Shown: in pieces, positions 4,849-23,699 of the stretch
Layout of the letters: every line of letters begins with the position of its first letter
Numbering within the stretch: position 1 is the first letter of the stretch
Origin: Dehalococcoidia bacterium
Lineage (GTDB): Bacteria > Chloroflexota > Dehalococcoidia > Lucifugimonadales > Australimonadaceae
Assembly (NCBI GenBank): GCA_022449765.1
Contig: JAKUPZ010000015.1
Span: forward strand, 1 to 37,207
Direction: 5' to 3'
Length of the DNA stretch: 37,207 nucleotides
The notes under the pieces: model-generated
What the model was told of the DNA's origin: nothing
The model's database searches: none
What the model saw: the letters and a program-made list of their open reading frames with translations, nothing else
Translations under genes and position numbers: made by a program

Positions 4849-6321
4849 TTATTCCAAGTTTACTGTAACGCTCTTTCGCTGAGTAAAGCTATCTAACATG
4901 CCTTCAAGAGAGAATTCCCTTCCAATTCCACTCATCTTATACCCACCGTAGGAATGTCCTGGCAATTGCCCTAATCCTCTGTTTACTTGAACCCAACCAG
5001 ATTCAATCTTATGAGCCGCATTGAGAGCTTGTTTAATATTTTTGCACCAGACATAGGCTGCCAATCCATAATGACTGTCGTTTGCCATGCGGATTACATC
5101 TTCTTCATCTGACCAAGGCACTACGACAAGCACAGGGCCAAAGATTTCCTCACGTGCAACTCGCCAATCATTATTAGCACGCGTTATCACCGTAGGAGTA
5201 ACATAATAGCCTTCTGCAAGCGGACCATGTGAGGGAGGCATCCCCCCAAGTACTATTTCTGAGCCTTCTTGCCCCAATCCATCCTCAATATAACTGCATA
5301 CCCGATTGAATTGCTTTTCATTGATTATTGATCCCATATGAGTTGCTTCATCAAGTGGGTTTCCGACTTTTAATCCCTTGAGCTTATCCACTAACTTACC
5401 TAGAAAGTCATCATGAATGCTTTCATGTAAGAAAAGACGCGACCCCGCTGTGCATGATTGCCCTTGACGGGTGAAACGCATTCCGGATATGACTCCCTGC
5501 ACAACACTATCTTCATTGGAGTCAGGGTACACGACAACAGGGCTTTTACCTCCAAGCTCAAGAGAGACCGGAACAATTCTGTCTGCCGCTGCATGCATAA
5601 TTAATTTCCCGACGTCAGTTGATCCTGTGAACGAAAGCTTTCTTACTAATGGGTGAGCTGCTAGTGCTGCGCCGGCCTCTTCACCATAGCCAGTGAGAAC
5701 ATTCAAAACACCTGCAGGCAAAAAATTGTTACAAATTTCGGACATTTTGAGAACTGCAAGAGGTGCATCTTCCGCAGCCTTGAGGACTAAAGTGTTTCCG
5801 GCAGTAATTGCCATGGCGATTTTCAATGCGCCTAATAGAACTGGTGAATTCCAGGGAATAATTCCGCCAACAACGCCAATGGGTTCACGTCTGTTGTAGA
5901 CAAGGAGATTTTCCCCTAGGGGAATTGTCTCTCCTTTAAGCTCGTTTGCAACTCCTCCAAAATAACGGAAAACCTCGGCGGTAGTGTTAGCTTCAGGTCT
6001 TGATTGCGGTGCTAATGCATTACCGGTTTCTGTAGAAATCAGAATAGCTATTTCCTCAGCAGCAGATTCCAGAGCATCTGCAATGCGAAGCATAATACGT
6101 CCTCTTTCACGAGGAGCTACTTTCCTCCAACTCTGGAAGGCGTCCTGTGCGACATGAACCGCATGGTCTACATCTTCTTGATATGACCTTGGCACTAAGG
6201 CAAGTGGGAGCCCACGGAAAGCAGGGTTTCCCACCACGATGGTGTCACCTGCTTTAGCAAGAATTTCTTCGCCTCCAACATGCATTGGTACAAGCTTAAG
6301 CTCTTCAGTTTGGGTAGCCAT
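4849..6321 (-). CDS. NAD(P)-dependent aldehyde dehydrogenase
   Basis: A full-length ALDH superfamily protein of 490 residues. The catalytic Asn158 (PWNSP), general-base Glu255 (LELGGKSP) and nucleophile Cys290 (GQSCTAG) are all present, as are the cofactor-binding FTGSTDVGK and the late block EEIFGPVLVVVPW. It oxidises an aldehyde to the carboxylate. The family resembles betaine/lactaldehyde-type ALDHs more than the CoA-acylating methylmalonate-semialdehyde type, but this is a visual judgement. It starts 11 bases after the 3-hydroxyisobutyrate-dehydrogenase-like gene, with GGAG before the ATG. The pair could convert a hydroxy acid or alcohol to an acid in two steps. Confidence 0.93.
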   Translation of the reverse strand: MATQTEELKLVPMHVGGEEILAKAGDTIVVGNPAFRGLPLALVPRSYQEDVDHAVHVAQDAFQSWRKVAPRERGRIMLRIADALESAAEEIAILISTETGNALAPQSRPEANTTAEVFRYFGGVANELKGETIPLGENLLVYNRREPIGVVGGIIPWNSPVLLGALKIAMAITAGNTLVLKAAEDAPLAVLKMSEICNNFLPAGVLNVLTGYGEEAGAALAAHPLVRKLSFTGSTDVGKLIMHAAADRIVPVSLELGGKSPVVVYPDSNEDSVVQGVISGMRFTRQGQSCTAGSRLFLHESIHDDFLGKLVDKLKGLKVGNPLDEATHMGSIINEKQFNRVCSYIEDGLGQEGSEIVLGGMPPSHGPLAEGYYVTPTVITRANNDWRVAREEIFGPVLVVVPWSDEEDVIRMANDSHYGLAAYVWCKNIKQALNAAHKIESGWVQVNRGLGQLPGHSYGGYKMSGIGREFSLEGMLDSFTQRKSVTVNLE

Positions 6322-6332
6322 ACTAATCTCCG

Positions 6333-7232
6333 TTACTCGTGTTTATGTGTTTCTAATAATTTTGCGACCGCAGAAAAATCTAACCTACCGAAGCCCTGTC
6401 TACTAGTAGCGCCATATTGTTCGTGAGCTATAGCAGTAAGTGCGAGGGGCAATTTTTCCTGACTTGCAGCGGATAGTGCTAATCCTAGATCTTTATACAT
6501 GAGATCAGTCATGAATCCAGGAGCGAACCCGTTATTTACCGGGCTATCTTCAATGACATCCGGAGCTGGGCATCGCGTTTGAAGCGTCCAGCAATTTCCT
6601 GATGCCTTCGACATCACTTCGAAAAGTATTTTTGGGTCAGCACCTTTAGATATGCCAAGTGCAAATGCCTCTGTCACTGCAACCATTGAAACCCCAGCAA
6701 CAAGATTATTAGCAAGCTTGACGGTCTCTCCCATTCCTATATCGCCACAGTGGATAATATTTGTCCCCATGCAGCTCAATAATGAATGATGCTCATCTAG
6801 AACGTCTTTACTCCCACCAACCATAATTGTCAGCGTTCCCGCAGTTGCCCAGGCAGATGAACCGCTTACAGGCGCATCGAGCATTTTGCCACCAGCCTCT
6901 GTTACTCCCTGTGCAATCTGGCGCGTAGTGTCAGGATCGATAGTACTCATGTCGATGATCGTGGCTCCATTTTTCAGCCCTGATATGTAGCCATCGGGTC
7001 CGAATGCTGCAGCTAAAGAATGCTGCGACGCTGGGAGCATTGAAACAATCACTTCAGAATTCTCAGCAACATTTTTGGCACTGGTTTCTGCTTTAGCTCC
7101 CTCTGCCACTAAAGATTCCACTGCACTTCCGTCGACATCAAAAACGGTAAGTTGATAACCCGCTTTTAGCAGGTTTAAAGCCATAGGCTTTCCCATAGTA
7201 CCTAACCCAACAAACCCGACATTCTGAGTCAT
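6333..7232 (-). CDS. 3-hydroxyisobutyrate dehydrogenase-family NAD(P)-dependent oxidoreductase
   Basis: A beta-hydroxyacid dehydrogenase of 299 residues. The dinucleotide fold GFVGLGTMGKPMA lies at the N-terminus, the substrate-binding DAPVSGSSAWATAGTLTIMVGG at about 119-140, and the catalytic lysine K172 in GETVKLANN. Family members oxidise 3-hydroxyisobutyrate, tartronate or related beta-hydroxy acids to semialdehydes. An upstream ATG at 7247 is possible, but GGAG sits 9 bases before the ATG at 7232, which also gives the standard family N-terminus. It lies 35 bases after the nitrile hydratase accessory gene and directly before the aldehyde dehydrogenase, so it probably makes the aldehyde that enzyme consumes. 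Confidence 0.9.
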   Translation of the reverse strand: MTQNVGFVGLGTMGKPMALNLLKAGYQLTVFDVDGSAVESLVAEGAKAETSAKNVAENSEVIVSMLPASQHSLAAAFGPDGYISGLKNGATIIDMSTIDPDTTRQIAQGVTEAGGKMLDAPVSGSSAWATAGTLTIMVGGSKDVLDEHHSLLSCMGTNIIHCGDIGMGETVKLANNLVAGVSMVAVTEAFALGISKGADPKILFEVMSKASGNCWTLQTRCPAPDVIEDSPVNNGFAPGFMTDLMYKDLGLALSAASQEKLPLALTAIAHEQYGATSRQGFGRLDFSAVAKLLETHKHE

Positions 7233-7267
7233 TTCATTATTCTCCATCCATTAATCTTCGCTTCGGA

Positions 7268-7660
7268 CTATAGCTGTTGTGAGTGATGCGGGAAAGACTT
7301 CGCTTCCGTGTATGCAGCTTTAAGATGCACAGGTTGGCCATGCTCGGTGTTTAGGTAGGCCCTCCGCCAGTCTTCTTGGCGAAGATCTATTTCACTTTCA
7401 CTTATTAGCCCTTTAGTAATACATAGGCGTTCTAGTGCCCGTAGCCAGTGCACGTAATAATTTTCTCTTATGTTTGGATCTGCTGATAAATTGGCATGCT
7501 TTATTTCTTCAGCTAGCGTTGTTGCCCATTCCTGCCAAGTGAAATGCTTTTCAGAGGAAAGTTGAACAGCAAGTGCAAAAGCCGAAGCTTCCCAAGGCTC
7601 AGAAAAGACAGGACCTGAATCATCTCTAGGTATCAGTGCTAACTCATCTATGTCGGCCAT
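7268..7660 (-). CDS. Nitrile hydratase accessory protein (metallochaperone/activator)
   Basis: The 130-residue protein has the core of the nitrile hydratase activator family: VFSEPWEASAFALAVQLSS, FTWQEWATTLAEEI, then NYYVHWLRALERLCITKGLI. This family is homologous to the N-terminal part of the NHase beta subunit and delivers cobalt (or iron) to the alpha subunit. The ATG at 7660 gives the normal family start MADIDELALIP; a TTG at 7690 would overlap the beta gene by 17 bases and adds an unlikely leader. It follows the alpha and beta genes, so the cluster has all three parts needed for an active enzyme. No CxCC-type metal motif is present, but there is one conserved Cys in RLCITKG. Confidence 0.88.
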   Translation of the reverse strand: MADIDELALIPRDDSGPVFSEPWEASAFALAVQLSSEKHFTWQEWATTLAEEIKHANLSADPNIRENYYVHWLRALERLCITKGLISESEIDLRQEDWRRAYLNTEHGQPVHLKAAYTEAKSFPHHSQQL

Positions 7661-7673
7661 CGCTACTTGCTTA

Positions 7674-8345
7674 TTAGATAGATTTTTCAAGGTAATCTTC
7701 CCATAAATCTACGTAGACGGCTGTATTAGATGCACCATCTGCCCCCCATAGTTCGGATGCTTCAAAACGTACGCTATAAAGATGATGGCCTTCGTCAACG
7801 CCCTTAACGCTTAAATCAGGGAAAACCTGCGCTCCGTAGTGTTCATGGACTACCCCTGAATGCCCTCTCACATACCTTGGTTCACGGGTATGCGATGTAG
7901 GATGCTGGTTTATTGCTCTCACGGCATCACCTACTTTGAATTTTGGAATCGCGTCTGTATCCCGGAAGTAGCTCATTCTTACCAATGGCGTATTTTTTAC
8001 ATCAGACGGTAGCAGGACACGTTCGCGTAATTCTTTTGGTGCAGGTCCCTTGGCAATACCTTCTAATAATTCCTCCATAGTCACCAAGCCAGATTCGAAC
8101 AACTGAGTCTCTAAACCTGCGAGCCAATTTTCATAATAAGAATTACGTAGGTAGTCTACTGGGTGAAGCCTTTCTCTAGCATGCCGTGACATATCTATAT
8201 TCCATAGACCAAATAAACCTAACATTCGGACTAATGCGTAAACTCTTCCCTCCCACCAATTGTGGAAAATTGGCTCAATATCTTCTGGTTCAGGATGAAT
8301 GGACCCAAACCCTTCGCTTCCCCCTAAATCATGTACGCTATTCAT
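7674..8345 (-). CDS. nthB: Nitrile hydratase beta subunit
   Basis: The 223-residue protein begins MNSVHDLGGSEGFGSIHPEP, the classic NHase beta start. The helical region WEGRVYALVRMLGLFGLWNIDMSRHARER then follows, with the C-terminal SH3-like barrel (FKVGDAVRAIN, TREPRYVRGHSGVV, LYSVRFEASELWG and YVDLWEDYL). It forms the alpha-beta heterodimer that hydrates nitriles to amides. Its ATG overlaps the alpha stop by 8 bases, which suggests translational coupling and balanced subunit supply. All expected blocks are present and length is normal. Confidence 0.95.
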   Translation of the reverse strand: MNSVHDLGGSEGFGSIHPEPEDIEPIFHNWWEGRVYALVRMLGLFGLWNIDMSRHARERLHPVDYLRNSYYENWLAGLETQLFESGLVTMEELLEGIAKGPAPKELRERVLLPSDVKNTPLVRMSYFRDTDAIPKFKVGDAVRAINQHPTSHTREPRYVRGHSGVVHEHYGAQVFPDLSVKGVDEGHHLYSVRFEASELWGADGASNTAVYVDLWEDYLEKSI

Positions 8346-8970
8346 GGATCAACTCTTCAGTCTGCAAATTTACCTTCTCAACCCCTATCATTGAATTCCT
8401 TGAGACAAGACTAATTAATTTTTCTTCAGGCCAATCCTCTGTTCCTTCCGGTCTCTGGGGCAAAACCAGGAATCTCATTTCAGAGGTGGAATCCCAAACA
8501 CGAATTTCTACGTTTTCAGGAATATTAGTGCCGAATTGCGCTAGCACCCCTCGAGGGTCTGCTACAGCACGTGACCGATAAGGCGCCGATTTATACCATA
8601 CTGGAGGTAAACCAAGAATTGGCCATGGGTAACATGAACACAGAGTACACACAACTAAATTATGTACTTGATCAGTGTTTTCCAAGATTCGAATCTGCTC
8701 ACCTTGTGCTCCAATTTCTGCAAATCCAGAGAGAGCAGAGTGAGGGTCATTAATAAGATCTGCCTTGAATTGAGGATCAACCCATGCCTTGGCAACAATT
8801 GCCTTACCAACAGATGGGCCAATTTTGGTTTCATAGGTATCAATGATCATGTCAATAGTCTCTGACTTGGCCAAACCTTTTTCGACAAGCAAAGATTCGA
8901 TTGATTTGACACGTAGCTCGGTGGAAGAAGGTGGCTCAGTGTGTTCATGATGATGTTCTGACATATTCAT
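8338..8970 (-). CDS. nthA: Nitrile hydratase alpha subunit, cobalt type
   Basis: The 210-residue protein contains the metal-binding claw C108-T-L-C111-S-C113 in VCTLCSCYPWPILGLPPVWY. Thr at the second position marks the cobalt class, since iron enzymes have Ser there; two of these cysteines are normally oxidised to sulfinic and sulfenic acids. The later blocks YRSRAVADPRGVLAQFG and VWDSTSEMRFLVLPQRPEGT complete the family pattern. The enzyme hydrates nitriles to amides in the cytoplasm. The N-terminus has a His-rich EHHHEH stretch. Start 8970 follows AGGAAAG and lies 4 bases after the LLM stop. An amidase, the usual next enzyme, is not found in this window. Confidence 0.96.
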   Translation of the reverse strand: MNMSEHHHEHTEPPSSTELRVKSIESLLVEKGLAKSETIDMIIDTYETKIGPSVGKAIVAKAWVDPQFKADLINDPHSALSGFAEIGAQGEQIRILENTDQVHNLVVCTLCSCYPWPILGLPPVWYKSAPYRSRAVADPRGVLAQFGTNIPENVEIRVWDSTSEMRFLVLPQRPEGTEDWPEEKLISLVSRNSMIGVEKVNLQTEELIHE

Positions 8971-8974
8971 TCTC

Positions 8975-9793
8975 TCACTTTCCTACTAAGGACCTGATTT
9001 TTTTTAGGTCAATGGGATCACTACCTCGGTATACCACAATAGCATCATCAAATCCTATATTTTTTAATTTTTCGAGTCGCTCAGACGCAATTTCAGGCTC
9101 ACACATTAAGTGGAATGAATTATCTGAATCTTGGAGAGGCTCTGACCGACTATCAAAAGCTAACGAAATGTTAGTAACTATAGCTCGTTTTCCTCCCGCC
9201 TCTTTATATTGTTTGATGCCATTTTTTAACGTATCAAATCCTGAAAAATAGGCTGATGCTATCCAACCATCGTAATTGCCTGCTGCTGAGTTAATCCATT
9301 TAGGTCCAGCCCAACTACCTATCACAATTGAAGGTCCCCCCAAGGTTACAGATGCTGGACAAAGATCGATGCCGTTGACCTCTTCACCACGCCAAAGCTT
9401 TTTCATAATTTCAAGTCCATCTCTAAGCAAGCTCATCCGTTCATTAAAATTTTTACCAACTGCCTCAAAGTCTATGCGGGTAGAGCCTGAACCAACTCCA
9501 AGAGTAAGCCTGCCCTCGCAAATTAAATGCGCGGTGAGAACACGATTCGCTAATTCATATGGATTACGTATCGGTATCTGGAGAATACCAATTCCAACTT
9601 CGATATGGCGTGTGGCGGCAGCTGCGACAGAAGCTCCTATCAAAGGATCAAAAGAGAGTCTTTTTCGACCTAAAGAATCAAAAAACCAAACACTGTCGAA
9701 TCCATGGGTTTCAGCAAGTGAAGCACCTTTGGAAAAAACATCATTGGTAGGTTCGGTATCAAAATCTAACGGAAGTGCTATTCCCAATCGCAT
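8975..9793 (-). CDS. LLM-class flavin/F420-dependent oxidoreductase
   Basis: A luciferase-like barrel of 272 residues opening MRLGIALPLDFDTEP. It has FDSVWFFDSLGRKRLSFDPLIGASVAAAAT, IEVGIGILQIPIRNPYELANRVLT and RLTLGVGSGSTRIDFEAVG, which follow the F420-type LLM order. The ATG at 9793 is chosen over a TTG at 9808 because GGAGATAAT precedes it; it begins 1 base after the stop of the racemase-like gene. It lies directly before nitrile hydratase alpha (4-base gap). A role oxidising a nitrile-bearing precursor or the nitrile product is an inference from this position. Confidence 0.88.
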   Translation of the reverse strand: MRLGIALPLDFDTEPTNDVFSKGASLAETHGFDSVWFFDSLGRKRLSFDPLIGASVAAAATRHIEVGIGILQIPIRNPYELANRVLTAHLICEGRLTLGVGSGSTRIDFEAVGKNFNERMSLLRDGLEIMKKLWRGEEVNGIDLCPASVTLGGPSIVIGSWAGPKWINSAAGNYDGWIASAYFSGFDTLKNGIKQYKEAGGKRAIVTNISLAFDSRSEPLQDSDNSFHLMCEPEIASERLEKLKNIGFDDAIVVYRGSDPIDLKKIRSLVGK

Positions 9794-9794
9794 A

Positions 9795-10526
9795 TTATCT
9801 CCGACCAAACACTGGCCATTCTCGCACTAATTTCCCTTTACCTTCAATTCTAAATTCATGCCCAAGTTTTGATACGATTGCCCAAAGCATGGCTGGATTA
9901 CTAGAGATAACTGGTATTGAAAATTCGGCTTCCATTTCATCTATTACTTGTAATGGACTTAGAACAGCTCCTTGGAAATATAAGGCGTCAATCCTACTAG
10001 ATTTAGCCACTGCTTTTTTGGTTATTTCATATACAATTTCATGGTTCAAATCTATTGCGTCTTGTTCGCTTGAGAACCCAAGATCTGCTAATTCGAATTC
10101 TATTCCTGTTTCTGCTTCAGATAAATGCTTCGTTATTAGAGAGTTCATATGTGAATCAAAAGGCGTTAGAAGTAAAACTTTTCTGGCATTATAGGCATTA
10201 AGAGCGGAGCACCCTGCCTCCAATGCTGTCACAAAAGGAATTTCCAATACGCTAGATAAACGATCTCGTAATCCTTGATTTTGAACTTCAACGGGTGCAC
10301 CAGGAATGATAATTCCCTGCCAATTGCTTTGCGCAGTTAACGTCACCGCTCTATTAATTATGGCGTCAGCTCTTGCTGCAAAATCAGTTAATGAAGATTG
10401 CATTACTCCTAGTTCTTGCATGTCTAAATTGATCCCTTCTGGGATCATTGCTGCAAATTCGTCATAATGAGATCTACCGGTGCCTGGCTTTAAGAATCCT
10501 ATTTTGAGATCTGTCGATATTGGCAT
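9795..10526 (-). CDS. Asp/Glu racemase / maleate isomerase / arylmalonate decarboxylase-family protein lacking both catalytic cysteines
   Basis: The 243-residue protein has the two-lobed Asp/Glu racemase fold: IGFLKPGTG at the start, WQGIIIPGAPVEV at 69-81, IPFVTALEAGCSALNAYNARKVLLLTP at 96-122 and IDALYFQGAVLSP at 179-191, ending IPVISSNPAMLWAI. In maleate isomerase and racemases a Cys stands at each active-site position; in arylmalonate decarboxylase one remains. Here the first site reads PGAP and the second QGAV; the only Cys (106) lies elsewhere. It is therefore probably not a standard racemase. The start at 10526 matches the family N-terminus; a longer ORF to 10583 has an atypical leader. 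It is the first gene of the nine-gene operon, divergent from the cupin gene. Confidence 0.75.
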   Translation of the reverse strand: MPISTDLKIGFLKPGTGRSHYDEFAAMIPEGINLDMQELGVMQSSLTDFAARADAIINRAVTLTAQSNWQGIIIPGAPVEVQNQGLRDRLSSVLEIPFVTALEAGCSALNAYNARKVLLLTPFDSHMNSLITKHLSEAETGIEFELADLGFSSEQDAIDLNHEIVYEITKKAVAKSSRIDALYFQGAVLSPLQVIDEMEAEFSIPVISSNPAMLWAIVSKLGHEFRIEGKGKLVREWPVFGRR

Positions 10527-10596: not shown

Positions 10597-11034
10597 ATGT
10601 CTGTAGAGCGAGAAAATATTGGGGAAATGGAAGTAATACGTTACGAAACACCTGATTTGGGAAGCTTGCCTAAATCGAATACGCAATTAGTTAACAGCGG
10701 AATCTTGGGAGTTGCTATCCAAGTGGTCAGTAAGGACGGGGGTGAGACCAACTTACATGCACATTCTGGCCAAGATGCAGTTTGGTTTGTCCTTTCAGGC
10801 AAAGCTCGATTTTACGGCAAGGACGGAAAGTCAGTTGACCTAGGCCCTAAGGATGCTTTATTCATACCTAAAGGCGTGGGCTATTGGTTTGAGTCTATTA
10901 GCGAAGAGCCTTTAGAAATAATGCGGAATTTTTCTACAGATCCTAATATGAAAAACCAGCGAATTAATTTTGAGGCCTTACGTGACCGACAACAGGATGG
11001 ACGTCACGCAGATAGCGTTTACGCTAACGGCTGA
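10597..11034 (+). CDS. Cupin domain-containing protein
   Basis: A single-domain cupin of 145 residues. Motif 1 reads NLHAHSGQDAVWFVLSG, keeping HxH but with Asp/Gln where the metal-binding Glu normally lies; motif 2 reads FIPKGVGYWFES, where the usual His is Tyr or Trp. Metal binding may therefore be weak or altered. AAGGGGTG precedes the ATG. It opens a plus-strand cluster (cupin, thioesterase, molybdopterin-domain protein, CMD-family protein) divergent from the nitrile hydratase operon, so the roughly 70-base space between them must hold both control regions. It could be a small dioxygenase, isomerase or a binding protein; the sequence does not decide. Confidence 0.8.
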   Translation: MSVERENIGEMEVIRYETPDLGSLPKSNTQLVNSGILGVAIQVVSKDGGETNLHAHSGQDAVWFVLSGKARFYGKDGKSVDLGPKDALFIPKGVGYWFESISEEPLEIMRNFSTDPNMKNQRINFEALRDRQQDGRHADSVYANG

Positions 11035-18534: not shown

Positions 18535-19755
18535 ATGAAGAATGTTCGAAGTATATTGCTATTTGCAGTTATGGCATTGACTCTAGGGATAGTAGTCGTA
18601 GCTTGTGGGGATGATCCCACACCTACGCCGAAACCGGCTGCGTCTGCTGCTGCTGCACCTACTGCAACACCAGTTCCGGCTCCTACGGCAACGCCAAAAC
18701 CAGGTGTTACCCCAGCTCCTACAGCTACGCCAAAACCTGCACCTACATTTGATGCAGAAGGGTATTTTAAAGGCAAAACTATTCGTATGATGGTTGGCTA
18801 CAACCCTGGTGGTGGTACTGACGCACAAGCAAGATTTATGTCCCGAGCTTGGCCGAAATACATACCTGGTAAGCCCCGCATCGTTGTTACGAATATGACT
18901 CCTGACGTAACTCAGCGTAATTTCGTTTGGAATTCAAAGCCTGATGGCTTGACCCTTTCAGTAGAGGCAACCGCAGGTATCTACGATATGAACATACCTA
19001 GTGCTGAGTTTGATATGCGAGAGGTTTCAATGATTGGTGTTACCTCAGGGAAAGACCAATTCTGGATGACCCTTGGAAGTACAGGATATGGCTGTTTAGA
19101 GACAGCGTTCAATTCGACAGGACCTACATTGACTGTTGGAACGTCTGCTCCTACCCCTGCTGATCTTGGTTCCGTTGTCGCAATCCCATGGATGGCAGAC
19201 CAATTTAATATTCCTTTGGAAATTAAGAATGTTGCCGCCGCGGGATCCGCTGAGCAATACCTAATGCTAGAGAGAGGCGATGTTAATAGCTGGACTTCGT
19301 CAACAGTTTGGAATCAGCTACCTATTACACGACCAGGTTGGATCGAGAGTGGATTCTTAAAACCATTCGCAGACATGTCCTTCCCTGGTTTTGAACTTGG
19401 ATCGAATGCTGAAGGTCCATATGATTGTGCCAAAGTAGAGAGCTTCTTTGATAAGGATGATCAATTACCAACTTGGTTGGCAATTACAGGTCCACGGACT
19501 TATGCATCTAAGAACATCATTGGCCCACCAAACATGGCTGAAGGCCCGCTGAAAGCCCTGCGAGACGCTTTGAGTGCAGCTATGGCTGACGAGGAATATG
19601 CTGCTGATCAAACACGATTTACAGGTATTCCAAATAACTTTACGCCTGGAGCACAGGCTCAAAAAGAATTGAGGGAAACTACACAAGCATTTATAGATAA
19701 TGCTAGTAAGATTGATGACATATCTAAAGCCGCTTTTGAGAAATACGTTAAGTAG
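18535..19755 (+). CDS. TctC-family tripartite tricarboxylate transporter substrate-binding lipoprotein (copy 1)
   Basis: The 406-residue precursor has a lipoprotein signal peptide with lipobox VVAC (Cys24), then a Pro-Thr-Ala linker (about 27-71, repeats of PTATPKP) tethering the binding domain away from the membrane. The domain opens GYFKGKTIRMMVGYNPGGGTDAQAR, the usual TctC ligand loop, and includes APTPADLGS and AAAGSAEQYLMLERGDV. Classical TctC is a free periplasmic protein; a lipid anchor suits a monoderm cell. Two Cys (in GYGCLE and YDCAKVE) occur at the same places in copy 2 and could form a disulfide. GGGAGG precedes the ATG. Its own promoter and terminator frame it as a single-gene unit. 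Confidence 0.92.
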   Translation: MKNVRSILLFAVMALTLGIVVVACGDDPTPTPKPAASAAAAPTATPVPAPTATPKPGVTPAPTATPKPAPTFDAEGYFKGKTIRMMVGYNPGGGTDAQARFMSRAWPKYIPGKPRIVVTNMTPDVTQRNFVWNSKPDGLTLSVEATAGIYDMNIPSAEFDMREVSMIGVTSGKDQFWMTLGSTGYGCLETAFNSTGPTLTVGTSAPTPADLGSVVAIPWMADQFNIPLEIKNVAAAGSAEQYLMLERGDVNSWTSSTVWNQLPITRPGWIESGFLKPFADMSFPGFELGSNAEGPYDCAKVESFFDKDDQLPTWLAITGPRTYASKNIIGPPNMAEGPLKALRDALSAAMADEEYAADQTRFTGIPNNFTPGAQAQKELRETTQAFIDNASKIDDISKAAFEKYVK

Positions 19756-19772
19756 ACTTAAGTAGTTTTAAT

Positions 19773-19808
19773 AAAACGAGCCGCTATTTTTAGCGGCTCG
19801 TTTTGTGT
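19773..19808 (+). terminator. Rho-independent terminator after first tctC
   Basis: A perfect 14-bp stem, AAAACGAGCCGCTA (19773-19786) with its complement (19791-19804), encloses a TTTT loop and ends in a T-rich run. Because the arms begin with A4 and end with T4, it could work in both directions. Confidence 0.9.
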
Positions 19809-19853
19809 TTATTGCCAATTTCGGAGTAATTTTGAAATTAGGCTTAAAAAAAA

Positions 19854-19882
19854 TTGACACTAGGAGCCGCGACCGATAGGGT
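19854..19882 (+). promoter_or_regulatory. Promoter of second tctC gene
   Basis: A perfect TTGACA (19854-19859), a 17-nt spacer and TAGGGT (19877-19882) start transcription roughly 60 bases before the ATG. It lies just after the terminator of copy 1, so the two binding proteins are made from separate mRNAs. Confidence 0.78.
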
Positions 19883-19949
19883 AACGCCTCGACATAGCGC
19901 ATTAGCTACGTCTAATACTGCCTTGTCCAAATGAGGTTGGGAGGAAACG

Positions 19950-21164
19950 ATGTTAAGGATAGGTAAAAAGTTAGCAGCCGTTGGCGTGATGAGCCTCGTG
20001 CTTGCTCTCGTGTTAATTGCATGTGGAGGGGATGATCCAACCCCAACACCTAAGCCTGCAGCTACAGCAACCCCTGTGCCTGCACCTACGGCAACCCCAA
20101 AACCTGGGGTTACTCCAGATCCTACTGCCACTCCTACTCCTGCTCCTAAAGAGCCAGAGTTTGATGCAGAAGCTTATTTCAAAGGTAAGACGATTCGCAT
20201 AATGGTTGGATTTAACCCAGGCGGTGGAACTGACGCTCAAGCAAGATACATGTCTAAAGCTTGGCCGGAATTCATTCCAGGGAAACCACGAATCGTAGTT
20301 ACGAATATGACTCCAGTTTTGACCGAACGAAACTTCGTTTGGAATTCCAAGCCTGATGGTCTTACTCTGGCTGTAGAAGCAACACCCGGTATTTTTGACA
20401 TGACCGCACCTGGTGCCCAATTTGATATGCGTGAAGTAACCATGATTGGTGTTACTTCCGGTAGAGAAGGGCTTTGGGTTATTAACGGTGAAATGGGATA
20501 TGATTGTTTTGAATCGGCATGGGGCGGCTCAGAGACTTTAACTATTGGCCAGAGCGCACCAACACCTGCTGACCTCGGTTCTTACGGTGTTTTGGGGTGG
20601 CTTGCTGATGAATTCAATGTTCCATTAGAGATTAGAAACGTTGCAGCAGCAGGTTCTGCTGAACAGTACTTGATGATGGAACGTGGTGATGTTAATTCCT
20701 GGTTATCAGGTACCTTATGGGACCAGTTCCCTCGCACGAGGCCAGATTGGCTTCCAAATGGATTTATTCGACCATTCGCTGACATGTCAGTTCCCGGATT
20801 TGATTTAGGTAACAATGGACAGATGGATTTCCATTGCCCGAACGTTGCTGATGCGCATTTGGACGAAGCTCAAACTGCTATCTACAACGCATTCCGTGGA
20901 CCTCAGATTTACGCAGCAAAGAACGTAGTTGGACCTCCGGGTATGGAAAAGGGCGTTGCGAATGCATTAAGGAATGCTCTTGCTGATGCGATGAATGACG
21001 AAAAATTTGCTTCAGACATGCAAGGATTTACAGGAATTAAGAATAACTTCTCGGGTGGTGAAGCCGCTCAACAGCAGCTTATTGAAACTACTCAAGCATT
21101 TTTGGACAAGAAAGATGATGTAGATAAAATCATCGAAGCTGTCCATGCGAAATACGTGAAATAG
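19950..21164 (+). CDS. TctC-family tripartite tricarboxylate transporter substrate-binding lipoprotein (copy 2)
   Basis: The 404-residue precursor is a tandem paralogue of copy 1. It has lipobox LIAC (Cys25), a PTATPKP-type linker to about residue 70, then AYFKGKTIRIMVGFNPGGGTDAQAR and the same block order throughout. Differences cluster in the ligand-side loops, for example TSGREGLWVINGEMGYDC against TSGKDQFWMTLGSTGYGC, so the two may bind different acids. Both conserved Cys are kept. GGGAGGAAAC precedes the ATG. The gene is followed by a hairpin and then the fused transporter gene, making this copy the more likely main partner of that channel. Confidence 0.92.
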   Translation: MLRIGKKLAAVGVMSLVLALVLIACGGDDPTPTPKPAATATPVPAPTATPKPGVTPDPTATPTPAPKEPEFDAEAYFKGKTIRIMVGFNPGGGTDAQARYMSKAWPEFIPGKPRIVVTNMTPVLTERNFVWNSKPDGLTLAVEATPGIFDMTAPGAQFDMREVTMIGVTSGREGLWVINGEMGYDCFESAWGGSETLTIGQSAPTPADLGSYGVLGWLADEFNVPLEIRNVAAAGSAEQYLMMERGDVNSWLSGTLWDQFPRTRPDWLPNGFIRPFADMSVPGFDLGNNGQMDFHCPNVADAHLDEAQTAIYNAFRGPQIYAAKNVVGPPGMEKGVANALRNALADAMNDEKFASDMQGFTGIKNNFSGGEAAQQQLIETTQAFLDKKDDVDKIIEAVHAKYVK

Positions 21165-21314: not shown

Positions 21315-23699
21315 TTGGAAGGCGAATGGGCTCATGAGGTAGGCCAGGCATTTGGAAGCCTGGCGGATCCAGTTTATTGGATTGCAGTTACGGGAGCTGT
21401 GCTGGTTGCGGCAGTTACCGGTATTATCCCTGGCGCTTCAGGCGTACTAATTATGGCACTCTCTATTCCTTTCATTGTGGATTTTTTCCGCGGTGAAAGA
21501 GCTGCTATTGGATTAGTGATGCTTGCCTCTATGACAGGCGTGAACAATACTTTGGACTCAATCCCTGCTGTGTTATTAGGACAACCTGGAGCAGCTACTC
21601 AGGTGACCTTCTTAGAGGGGCATCAGTTAGCTAGGCAAGGTAAGGCGGCACATACTCTTGGTGCAATATATGCAGTTTCTGCATTAGGCGGAATAATCGG
21701 AGCAGTGGTACTTGCTATTCTCGTACCTATCATTAAGCCTTTCGTTCTTTCCTTTGGATTTCCCGAAATTGCGGCGATGGCATTTTTCGGAATAGCTATG
21801 GTCTCCGCCCTTAGTTCTGGAGCAATGGTTAAAGGGCTGGCCGCAGGTGCATTAGGAGTGCTTTTCGGAACGGTCGGAATAAACCCAATTACTGGGGATG
21901 TTCGATTTGTTTTCCAGCAACCTAGCTTGTGGTCTGGGTTACCGTTGATTGCTACCACACTAGGTCTTTTTGCTCTACCTGAAATGATTGACCTTTCTAT
22001 AGCCCGACGTCCGGTTGCTCCACGTGATGCTGTGATTAACACTGGTGAAGTATGGCGTGGTGCTCGTGCAGGACTTAGTCGCTGGCCGATAATGATTCGA
22101 CAATCAATTTTTGGGGTGCTGCTAGGTGCCATACCCGGAGTAGGTGCCGCAGTAATTGACTGGCTTTCCTATGCTTTTGGTATTTTCTGGTCAAAAGATA
22201 AGAGCCAATTTGGTAAAGGTTCTCTTGATGGGGTTTTATTTGCTGAATCTGCACAGAACTCTAAAGAAGCTGGGCAGGCAATACCTACACTTGCTCTAGG
22301 TGTCCCTGGGGGACTGGCATGGGCCTTTGTACTTATAGCAATGCTTGCAATGGACGTTACCCCTGGTCCCCAGATGTTAGGGCGCTTTGCAGATGTAACT
22401 ATCCTGTTAATTATAACTTTGGCTATCGGTAACTTTATGGTTACCATCTTAGGTATTTTAGCTACTGGTCATCTTGCGAAATTAACCAAAGTTCCATACC
22501 CCGTTATTGGTGGTATTGTTATTCCTATTTCGATATTAACCGGTGTCATCAATATGACGAACTGGTTGGCAATTCCTATCATGTTTGTATTTATGGGAAT
22601 TGGAATCATCATGAAATTATTCCAGTGGCCGCGACCTCCCTTACTTTTGGGAGTGATACTTGGTCCTATAATTGAGTTGAATTTCCAGTCTGCGGTCAAC
22701 GTCCACGGGTTTACGGGTGTTTTGGGTAGGCCACTCACCATAGGGCTGATATTTATAGCTGTAGCTACGGCATACATGTTCTATCGATCTGGACAGAATC
22801 AGGCTAAAGCACAGCAGTTAATTAGAGAAAATGACGACTCGCCTGCGGATGATCACAGCAGCACAGGGACCCCCCCTCTAATCCCAGCGAATTCTTTCTT
22901 CAAGGGATTGAAATTAGTGCTTACCTTGGGAACAAATGATATTCGTAATTTCCCTGTATTTCTTGCTATTGGTGGTGGGACTGCTTTCATTCTCAGTTCG
23001 GTTCCTATCCCGGCGTTTGGATGGCCAGGCTTTAGTTCAACTTCAAGAATGTTACCTGTTGTAATGTCCTCAACAGTAATACTGTTGGCGAGCATTCAAT
23101 TGTTCTTCAATTTGCGCGAAAAAATCCGGGGAGGCAACTCTGGGCAAGCTGACATTATGGATTTAGGTATGCACAGCTTGACATTACCGGGTGCAAGAGG
23201 AGCTATTCTCCTAGTCGGTCTGACGATGCTTCTTTTCCTATTGGCAACGGGAATCGTTGGCTTGCGCTGGGGAGCTCTATTACTTGCGGCTTTATTGCCA
23301 ATATTTCTCATGAGCGGAACCCCCGAAAAGCCAGGAGTAGTGGCTGCAGTATCAGGTACATTCGTTGCAATCGCACTGATTGGTACAGGCGAGACAATTG
23401 CATATAACTGGGGCTTGATTGAGGATATGCCATATTTGGATACCTTTACCGATGCTGCACCCATGCTTGCAGGGCTATTGGTTCTTGGCCTTATATATGT
23501 TCCTCAAGTTAGAAATTTCCAGCCTCCTGCTACTCTGACCTGGCTGTTTTCATGGAGAATTTTGGCGGCTCTAATTACTGTTTCATTTGTTACAGTGTTC
23601 CAATTTATAATGGCTGACAATATTCTATATATGATTTGGCCTGAGGCTGCTTTGTTTGAGTGGATCGGGCGAGAAATCTGGACACCGCTTTTTGGATAG
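21315..23699 (+). CDS. TctA family transporter fused to a TctB-like membrane domain
   Basis: The 794-residue protein has two parts. Residues 1-490 form a complete TctA: GIIPGASGVLIMALSIPF near the start, the second signature GAIPGVGAAVIDWLSYAFG (271-289) and IPTLALGVPGGLA (323-335), with about a dozen membrane spans. A charged linker follows (about 491-535, rich in Asp, Gln and Ser). Residues 536-794 add several more spans, opening IRNFPVFLAIGGGTAFIL and with GLRWGALLLAALLPIFLMSG, resembling the small TctB subunit, which has no separate gene here. The start is TTG at 21315, with GAGGTGAT 5 bases upstream; the nearer ATG is in another frame and stops early. It probably moves di- or tricarboxylates with Na+ or H+. 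Confidence 0.88.
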   Translation: MEGEWAHEVGQAFGSLADPVYWIAVTGAVLVAAVTGIIPGASGVLIMALSIPFIVDFFRGERAAIGLVMLASMTGVNNTLDSIPAVLLGQPGAATQVTFLEGHQLARQGKAAHTLGAIYAVSALGGIIGAVVLAILVPIIKPFVLSFGFPEIAAMAFFGIAMVSALSSGAMVKGLAAGALGVLFGTVGINPITGDVRFVFQQPSLWSGLPLIATTLGLFALPEMIDLSIARRPVAPRDAVINTGEVWRGARAGLSRWPIMIRQSIFGVLLGAIPGVGAAVIDWLSYAFGIFWSKDKSQFGKGSLDGVLFAESAQNSKEAGQAIPTLALGVPGGLAWAFVLIAMLAMDVTPGPQMLGRFADVTILLIITLAIGNFMVTILGILATGHLAKLTKVPYPVIGGIVIPISILTGVINMTNWLAIPIMFVFMGIGIIMKLFQWPRPPLLLGVILGPIIELNFQSAVNVHGFTGVLGRPLTIGLIFIAVATAYMFYRSGQNQAKAQQLIRENDDSPADDHSSTGTPPLIPANSFFKGLKLVLTLGTNDIRNFPVFLAIGGGTAFILSSVPIPAFGWPGFSSTSRMLPVVMSSTVILLASIQLFFNLREKIRGGNSGQADIMDLGMHSLTLPGARGAILLVGLTMLLFLLATGIVGLRWGALLLAALLPIFLMSGTPEKPGVVAAVSGTFVAIALIGTGETIAYNWGLIEDMPYLDTFTDAAPMLAGLLVLGLIYVPQVRNFQPPATLTWLFSWRILAALITVSFVTVFQFIMADNILYMIWPEAALFEWIGREIWTPLFG

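Follow-up and report, generated by a model that had tools for sequence, protein, structure and literature searches.

The gene at positions 9795 to 10526 (minus strand, stop codon included) of the window, the 37,207-nucleotide stretch of DNA from a marine Dehalococcoidia bacterium analysed here, encodes a protein of 243 amino acids that is a relative of arylmalonate decarboxylase (AMDase) and maleate isomerase in sequence and fold and carries neither catalytic cysteine. Comparison with close relatives indicates that its pocket is rebuilt and maintained under purifying selection. We give about even odds to its being a lyase or isomerase that works without a thiol or a cofactor and serves an oxidative catabolic pathway. 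The gene was assigned from its open reading frame, its match to the Pfam family Amdase and its predicted structure. The minus-strand frame is open, whereas the plus-strand frame of the same positions is closed by many stops, and the start codon is backed by an orthologue (L001) that aligns from residue 1.

The protein scored 64.1 bits against Pfam Amdase (PF17645), above the cut-off of 25.9, and matched Asp_Glu_race under that family's own cut-off. Its scores against two equivalog families, arylmalonate decarboxylase (NF052327, 59.9 bits against a cut-off of 225) and EutA (TIGR02990, 52.2 bits against 318), are far below the thresholds. The AlphaFold model, which was built from 39 aligned sequences (mean pLDDT 91.6, pTM 0.90), has the two-domain, pseudo-symmetric alpha/beta fold of the Asp/Glu racemases. 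Its best structural match is the maleate isomerase 4fq5_B (Z 25.9, 229 residues, 2.3 Å), and the AMDase structures 3ixl (Z 24.2) and 3dg9 (Z 23.6, 222 residues, 2.5 Å) also match closely. The top 12 structures by Z (20.9 to 25.9) are maleate isomerases, AMDases, 4ix1 and 2dgd, and the Foldseek matches agree with this ranking. Structure prediction and structural matching, which an earlier note on this DNA had proposed as a check, thus gave the maleate isomerase/AMDase fold. In the model, strands 71-74 and 181-184 directly precede the two motifs discussed below; both motif glycines are the second residue after the strand, and the motifs sit where the pseudo-symmetry of the fold puts the two catalytic residues.

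The minus-strand translation bears out the earlier reading of PGAP at residues 75-78 (10293..10304, minus strand), QGAV at 185-188 (9963..9974, minus strand) and a single cysteine at position 106 (10209..10211, minus strand). For mapping both sites, a profile built from 14 orthologues and paralogues was aligned to AMDase chains, with AMDase numbering as given in the accessible part of PMC4996985. In this alignment, GaP falls on GTS and fqGav falls on LSCGG, so that G76, A77 and P78 correspond to Gly74, Thr75 and Ser76 of AMDase, and F123, G186 and A187 correspond to Tyr126, Cys188 and Gly189. G76 therefore stands in place of the first catalytic cysteine (Gly74 in AMDase) and G186 in place of AMDase Cys188; the profile alignment and a census of aligned rows both support the claim that the two catalytic cysteines are missing. 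According to the same portion of PMC4996985, Cys188 is the proton donor of AMDase, and T75, S76, Y126 and G189 form its dioxyanion hole. Because P78 offers no main-chain NH and A77, P78 and F123 replace T75, S76 and Y126, carboxylate binding would be weakened or changed, which counts against a lyase or isomerase.

Cys106 lies inside helix 101-111 of the model, outside the active-site loops as the earlier note had it, and in a variable column: cysteine occurs there in the window protein only, and the other 18 census rows of the clade have L, E, V, T, S or A. A role for Cys106 as a displaced catalytic residue is ruled out by its helix position and its lack of conservation. It falls on no catalytic position, and the nearest rows that carry a cysteine at either site are only 27-28% identical, so neither outcome that could have overturned the earlier claim was seen.

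A search of 16 genomes of the window's family gave 22 clade members, spread over 12 genomes, and all 22 were read (19 as census rows and L005, L033 and L035 in a separate alignment). Ten are of the window type, two of them at 48% identity, and 12 are paralogues at 34-41%. Six relatives at 59-74% identity were found in named genome records, all of them SAR202, Dehalococcoidia or Chloroflexota MAGs, which places the window's genome in the SAR202/Dehalococcoidia group of Chloroflexota. The alignment of close homologues, likewise proposed earlier, showed that all 22 members lack both cysteines and that G76, P78, F184, Q185 and G186 are conserved in 22/22. His20 (10467..10469, minus strand) is also common to all of them, including the 19/19 census rows, and is a candidate proton donor or acceptor. 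Gln82-Asn83 (10278..10283, minus strand), a clade-specific polar pair after site 1, is kept in 18/19 clade rows, and Q82 is absent from the other two-Cys, one-Cys and Cys-free rows. The clade-specific residues Q82, N83, F184, Q185 and P191 cluster at the two former cysteine sites. Among the 14 orthologues and paralogues, 59 columns are invariant, with 35 of 79 in strand-end loops and 24 of 164 elsewhere (Fisher p 1.0e-6, an indicative value because the loops were picked by hand from the model strands). The dN/dS ratio is about 0.07-0.17 in the four orthologue pairs with unsaturated synonymous sites; the window gene and L001 differ with a dN of 0.19, their synonymous sites being saturated. The window's genome encodes two further Cys-free AMDase-like paralogues, L009 (G000:C9:47276-47959) and L008 (G000:C2:90542-91258), and all three of its detected family members lack both cysteines.

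Given that the replacement residues are strictly conserved in close relatives, the protein probably functions, and by a different chemistry. The earlier statement that the protein must have lost activity or do different chemistry was reasonable; the conserved pocket and the low dN relative to dS favour function over decay, and the balance leans towards different chemistry.

In the window, the gene is the first of an operon that includes nitrile hydratase, as had been claimed. Directly downstream is a luciferase-like (LLM) oxidoreductase gene (8975..9793, minus strand; PF00296, 117.9 bits), and a single base separates its ATG from the stop codon of the AMDase-like gene; the longest LLM reading frame starts with TTG at 9808. 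The genes for the nitrile hydratase alpha subunit (8338..8970; TIGR01323, 280.7 bits), beta subunit (7674..8345; TIGR03888, 227 bits) and accessory protein (7268..7690; TIGR03889, 90.1 bits) follow on the minus strand, all above cut-off. The alpha subunit carries CTLCSC, which we take to be the cobalt-type metal motif of nitrile hydratase. Among the orthologue loci read, only the window and L001 have, beyond the operon, a 3-hydroxyisobutyrate dehydrogenase-like gene (6333..7247, minus strand; TIGR01692, 331.1 bits) and an aldehyde dehydrogenase gene (4849..6321, minus strand; PF00171, 505.8 bits). A divergently transcribed cupin gene (10597..11034, plus strand; PF07883) adjoins the orthologue in 6/8 genomes. 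Nine amidase family matches were found in the genome, and none of them lies on the window's contig, which rules out an amidase next to the nitrile hydratase genes. Elsewhere in the window, a TctA-type transporter gene (PF01970) comes after two long lipoprotein-like reading frames with Pro-Thr linkers (21315-23699 and 18535-21164, both plus strand), the first of which has no Pfam match at 1e-6.

The most constant neighbour is the LLM gene. It is directly downstream on the same strand in all eight genomes with an AMDase-like orthologue of at least 60% identity, and LLM orthologues, at the threshold used, occur in exactly those eight genomes. In two loci (L002 and L004), an extra gene stands between the LLM and nitrile hydratase genes, which, judged by eye, we presume to be PrmC-like. 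The F420 enzyme CofE was found in the genome, and the LLM protein could therefore use F420 or a flavin. The two relatives at 48% identity (L042 and L043) and L051 adjoin Rieske oxygenase genes, L051 having one on each side. Altogether, 11 of the 22 clade members adjoin a gene for an oxidative enzyme (eight LLM and three Rieske). For the other 11, no neighbour related to the window's four oxygenase baits (LLM/Rieske) was found in flanks of 1.5 kb to about 10 kb, which counts against the lyase or isomerase reading.

If the protein is such a lyase or isomerase, main-chain amides in its two strand-end loops would still anchor the substrate. The available part of PMC12661438 describes substrate binding by main-chain amides in OpaE, where they belong to Phe91 and Thr200, which come just after the two cysteines. 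A77 and A187 follow the former cysteine positions and match these amide positions, so anchoring may persist without side chains. The task of the thiol would have passed to the clade-specific candidates His20, Gln185 and Gln82/Asn83, or to water. His20 and Gln185 are invariant and Gln82/Asn83 nearly so, and all are at or near strand ends; from the alignment, we infer that these four residues could replace the thiol. Against His20 in this role, a histidine is also present in column 20 of 17/61 two-Cys rows (in a row set with L029/L068 and L022/L096 entered twice). A thiol-free pocket together with a co-encoded oxidoreductase suggests a cofactor-free decarboxylation, isomerisation or elimination. 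The reactant would be a carboxylate or amide intermediate handled by that oxidoreductase, and nitrile hydratase would act elsewhere in the same catabolic route. A broader proposal, which we advance tentatively and at rather less than even odds, is that the clade represents a new activity on the Asp/Glu racemase fold, in which the thiols were given up and the pocket was rebuilt (His20, Gln82-Asn83 and Phe184-Gln185) for carbanion or enol chemistry on the substrate or product of the paired oxidoreductase. In that case the clade would belong, with PDB 4ix1, to a far wider class of thiol-free "GxP" proteins.

Several other explanations were weighed. The protein may be a pseudoenzyme that has kept ligand binding and lost catalysis, and that serves as a binding, sensing or scaffold subunit for the adjoining oxidoreductase. 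This would account for the loss of both catalytic cysteines and of the dioxyanion-hole side chains (as the latter are defined in the accessible text of PMC4996985), and the strict 8/8 pairing with the LLM gene is as compatible with a subunit as with a step in a pathway. However, the eleven paralogous clade members in which no LLM or Rieske neighbour was found keep the pocket motifs, and conservation is concentrated in the hand-chosen strand-end loops, not on surfaces. A pseudoenzyme is the main rival, though we hold it to be unlikely.

We consider it improbable that the protein is an AMDase-like decarboxylase in the narrow sense, which would act on alpha-substituted malonates by the enediolate route with water or another residue in place of Cys188. 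The nearest curated families are Amdase and arylmal_decarb, and G76 occupies the position of AMDase Gly74. However, the score against the arylmalonate decarboxylase equivalog is about a quarter of its cut-off, and T75, S76, Y126, C188 and G189, as numbered in the available portion of PMC4996985, are all replaced. In addition, that portion reports true AMDases only from Alpha-, Beta- and Gammaproteobacteria.

A role specific to the operon's nitrile hydratase, as a maturation factor or partner enzyme, would agree with the shared operon in the window and with the presence of nitrile hydratase alpha within about 3 kb in 6/8 orthologue genomes. In one genome (G257), however, the AMDase-like and LLM genes are paired about 300 kb from nitrile hydratase; in another (G276), the contig breaks off next to the LLM gene and a search for nitrile hydratase came up empty. 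Two further genomes (G395 and G400) have nitrile hydratase without a member of the AMDase-like clade, and the usual accessory protein is already encoded in the operon. Nitrile hydratase was rejected as an obligate partner, its link (6/8) being less constant than that of LLM (8/8), and a helper function is very improbable. A decaying gene or a sequence or annotation error, which might be suspected from the loss of both catalytic residues and from in-frame stops in some more distant relatives, is already refuted by the same residues in 22/22 clade members from 12 genomes, by dN well below dS and by the open frame in the window.

The window protein is not a lone oddity, judging from the Cys-free rows of the census and from PDB 4ix1. 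Some of the rows were collected for their similarity to the window protein, others by an Amdase search of 400 genomes of the phylum. Among the 152 distinct AMDase-like rows, 60 have both cysteines, 32 the second only (the AMDase type), five the first only and 52 neither, and three are gapped at a site. Cys-free proteins thus make up 52 of the 149 rows with both sites readable, in a sample biased towards the window protein. The phylum-wide survey contributed 108 rows read of 120 matches listed: 56 two-Cys, 24 second-only, five first-only, 22 neither and one with a gap. Not counted among the 108 were five matches in G000 and G069, four of them present under other identifiers and all five covered elsewhere, and seven short or weak fragments. 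Five of the rows (L029, L039, L042, L047 and L054), and L150 besides, derive from matches that contain an in-frame stop, and each was read from one stop-free piece. Proline at position 78, the "GxP" signature, is present in 46/52 Cys-free and 22/32 second-Cys-only rows and in 0/60 two-Cys rows. A quick tree of 104 rows, calculated with the site columns removed, strongly supports the window clade (12 rows), which is wholly Cys-free. In the same tree, the deep branches of which are weak, the Cys-free rows need eight changes, three of them forced by well-supported branches.

Beyond the phylum, 179 records matched, and of the seven plasmid-borne relatives that were read among them, five have both cysteines, one (Aminobacter, L196) the second only and one (Acuticoccus, L193) neither. 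Tripartite tricarboxylate transporter genes lie immediately upstream of the Cys-free gene of the Acuticoccus plasmid (2992-3708), a setting that the part of PMC4996985 at hand describes for true AMDases as well. A search of viral contigs confirmed no relatives there.

The Cys-free state is common and, as far as our searches show, is not discussed in the literature searched. No paper on Cys-free members was found there, a weak negative given that subscription journals were thinly covered, and none of the Cys-free relatives found has a known activity. A 2025 paper, in its accessible part, presents the cysteines as a conserved feature of the whole superfamily (PMC12661438). About a third of the AMDase-like proteins sampled here have neither cysteine, with a recognisable G-x-P at site 1 and site residues fixed within each clade. 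The window clade is thus one well-conserved group in a larger and unexplored set of Cys-free proteins belonging to a known family, and automatic labels such as "Asp/Glu racemase" or "maleate isomerase" would be misleading for such proteins. If these proteins are active, two-, one- and no-cysteine pockets would form a natural series on one fold and offer a route to learning how protons are handled without a thiol.

Among known systems, the closest in structure is maleate cis-trans isomerase (PDB 4fq5, 4fq7, 2xec and 2xed), which is 19% identical. It has two catalytic cysteines, as the C200A and C194S mutants in the PDB titles indicate, whereas the window protein has G76 and G186. EutA of ectoine utilisation is a weak family match only, and a Rhizobium phaseoli EutA (L192) carries both cysteines, in SCTSAS and ISCTAL, in contrast to the window protein. 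OpaE and allantoin racemase (PDB 9qbx and 3qvj) have the common Asp/Glu racemase fold (Z 16-18), with an oxyanion hole formed by main-chain amides beside the catalytic positions; both cysteines of OpaE are essential, the mutants being almost inactive according to the available text of PMC12661438. PDB 4ix1, the hypothetical protein OPAG_01669 of Rhodococcus opacus, is an uncharacterised structural-genomics entry of 2013, and the literature searched contained no paper naming it and no function for it. It is also Cys-free, with VGTP at site 1 and MSGAA at site 2 in the alignment, and has the same fold (Z 23.4) at about 19% identity, but without the QN pair and without FQG. AMDase of Bordetella bronchiseptica (PDB 3dg9 and 2vlb), at about 19-20% identity, shares with the window protein the fold, the Pfam family, the glycine at site 1 and membership of a cofactor-free family. 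The window protein differs from it in lacking Cys188 and in having A77, P78, F123 and A187 for the dioxyanion-hole residues T75, S76, Y126 and G189 (identified from the accessible portion of PMC4996985). In a region outside the profile alignment, P14 of the AMDase pair P14 P15 is present and residue 15 is glycine; AMDase has its own hydrophobic pocket, formed by L40, V43, Y48, V156 and M159.
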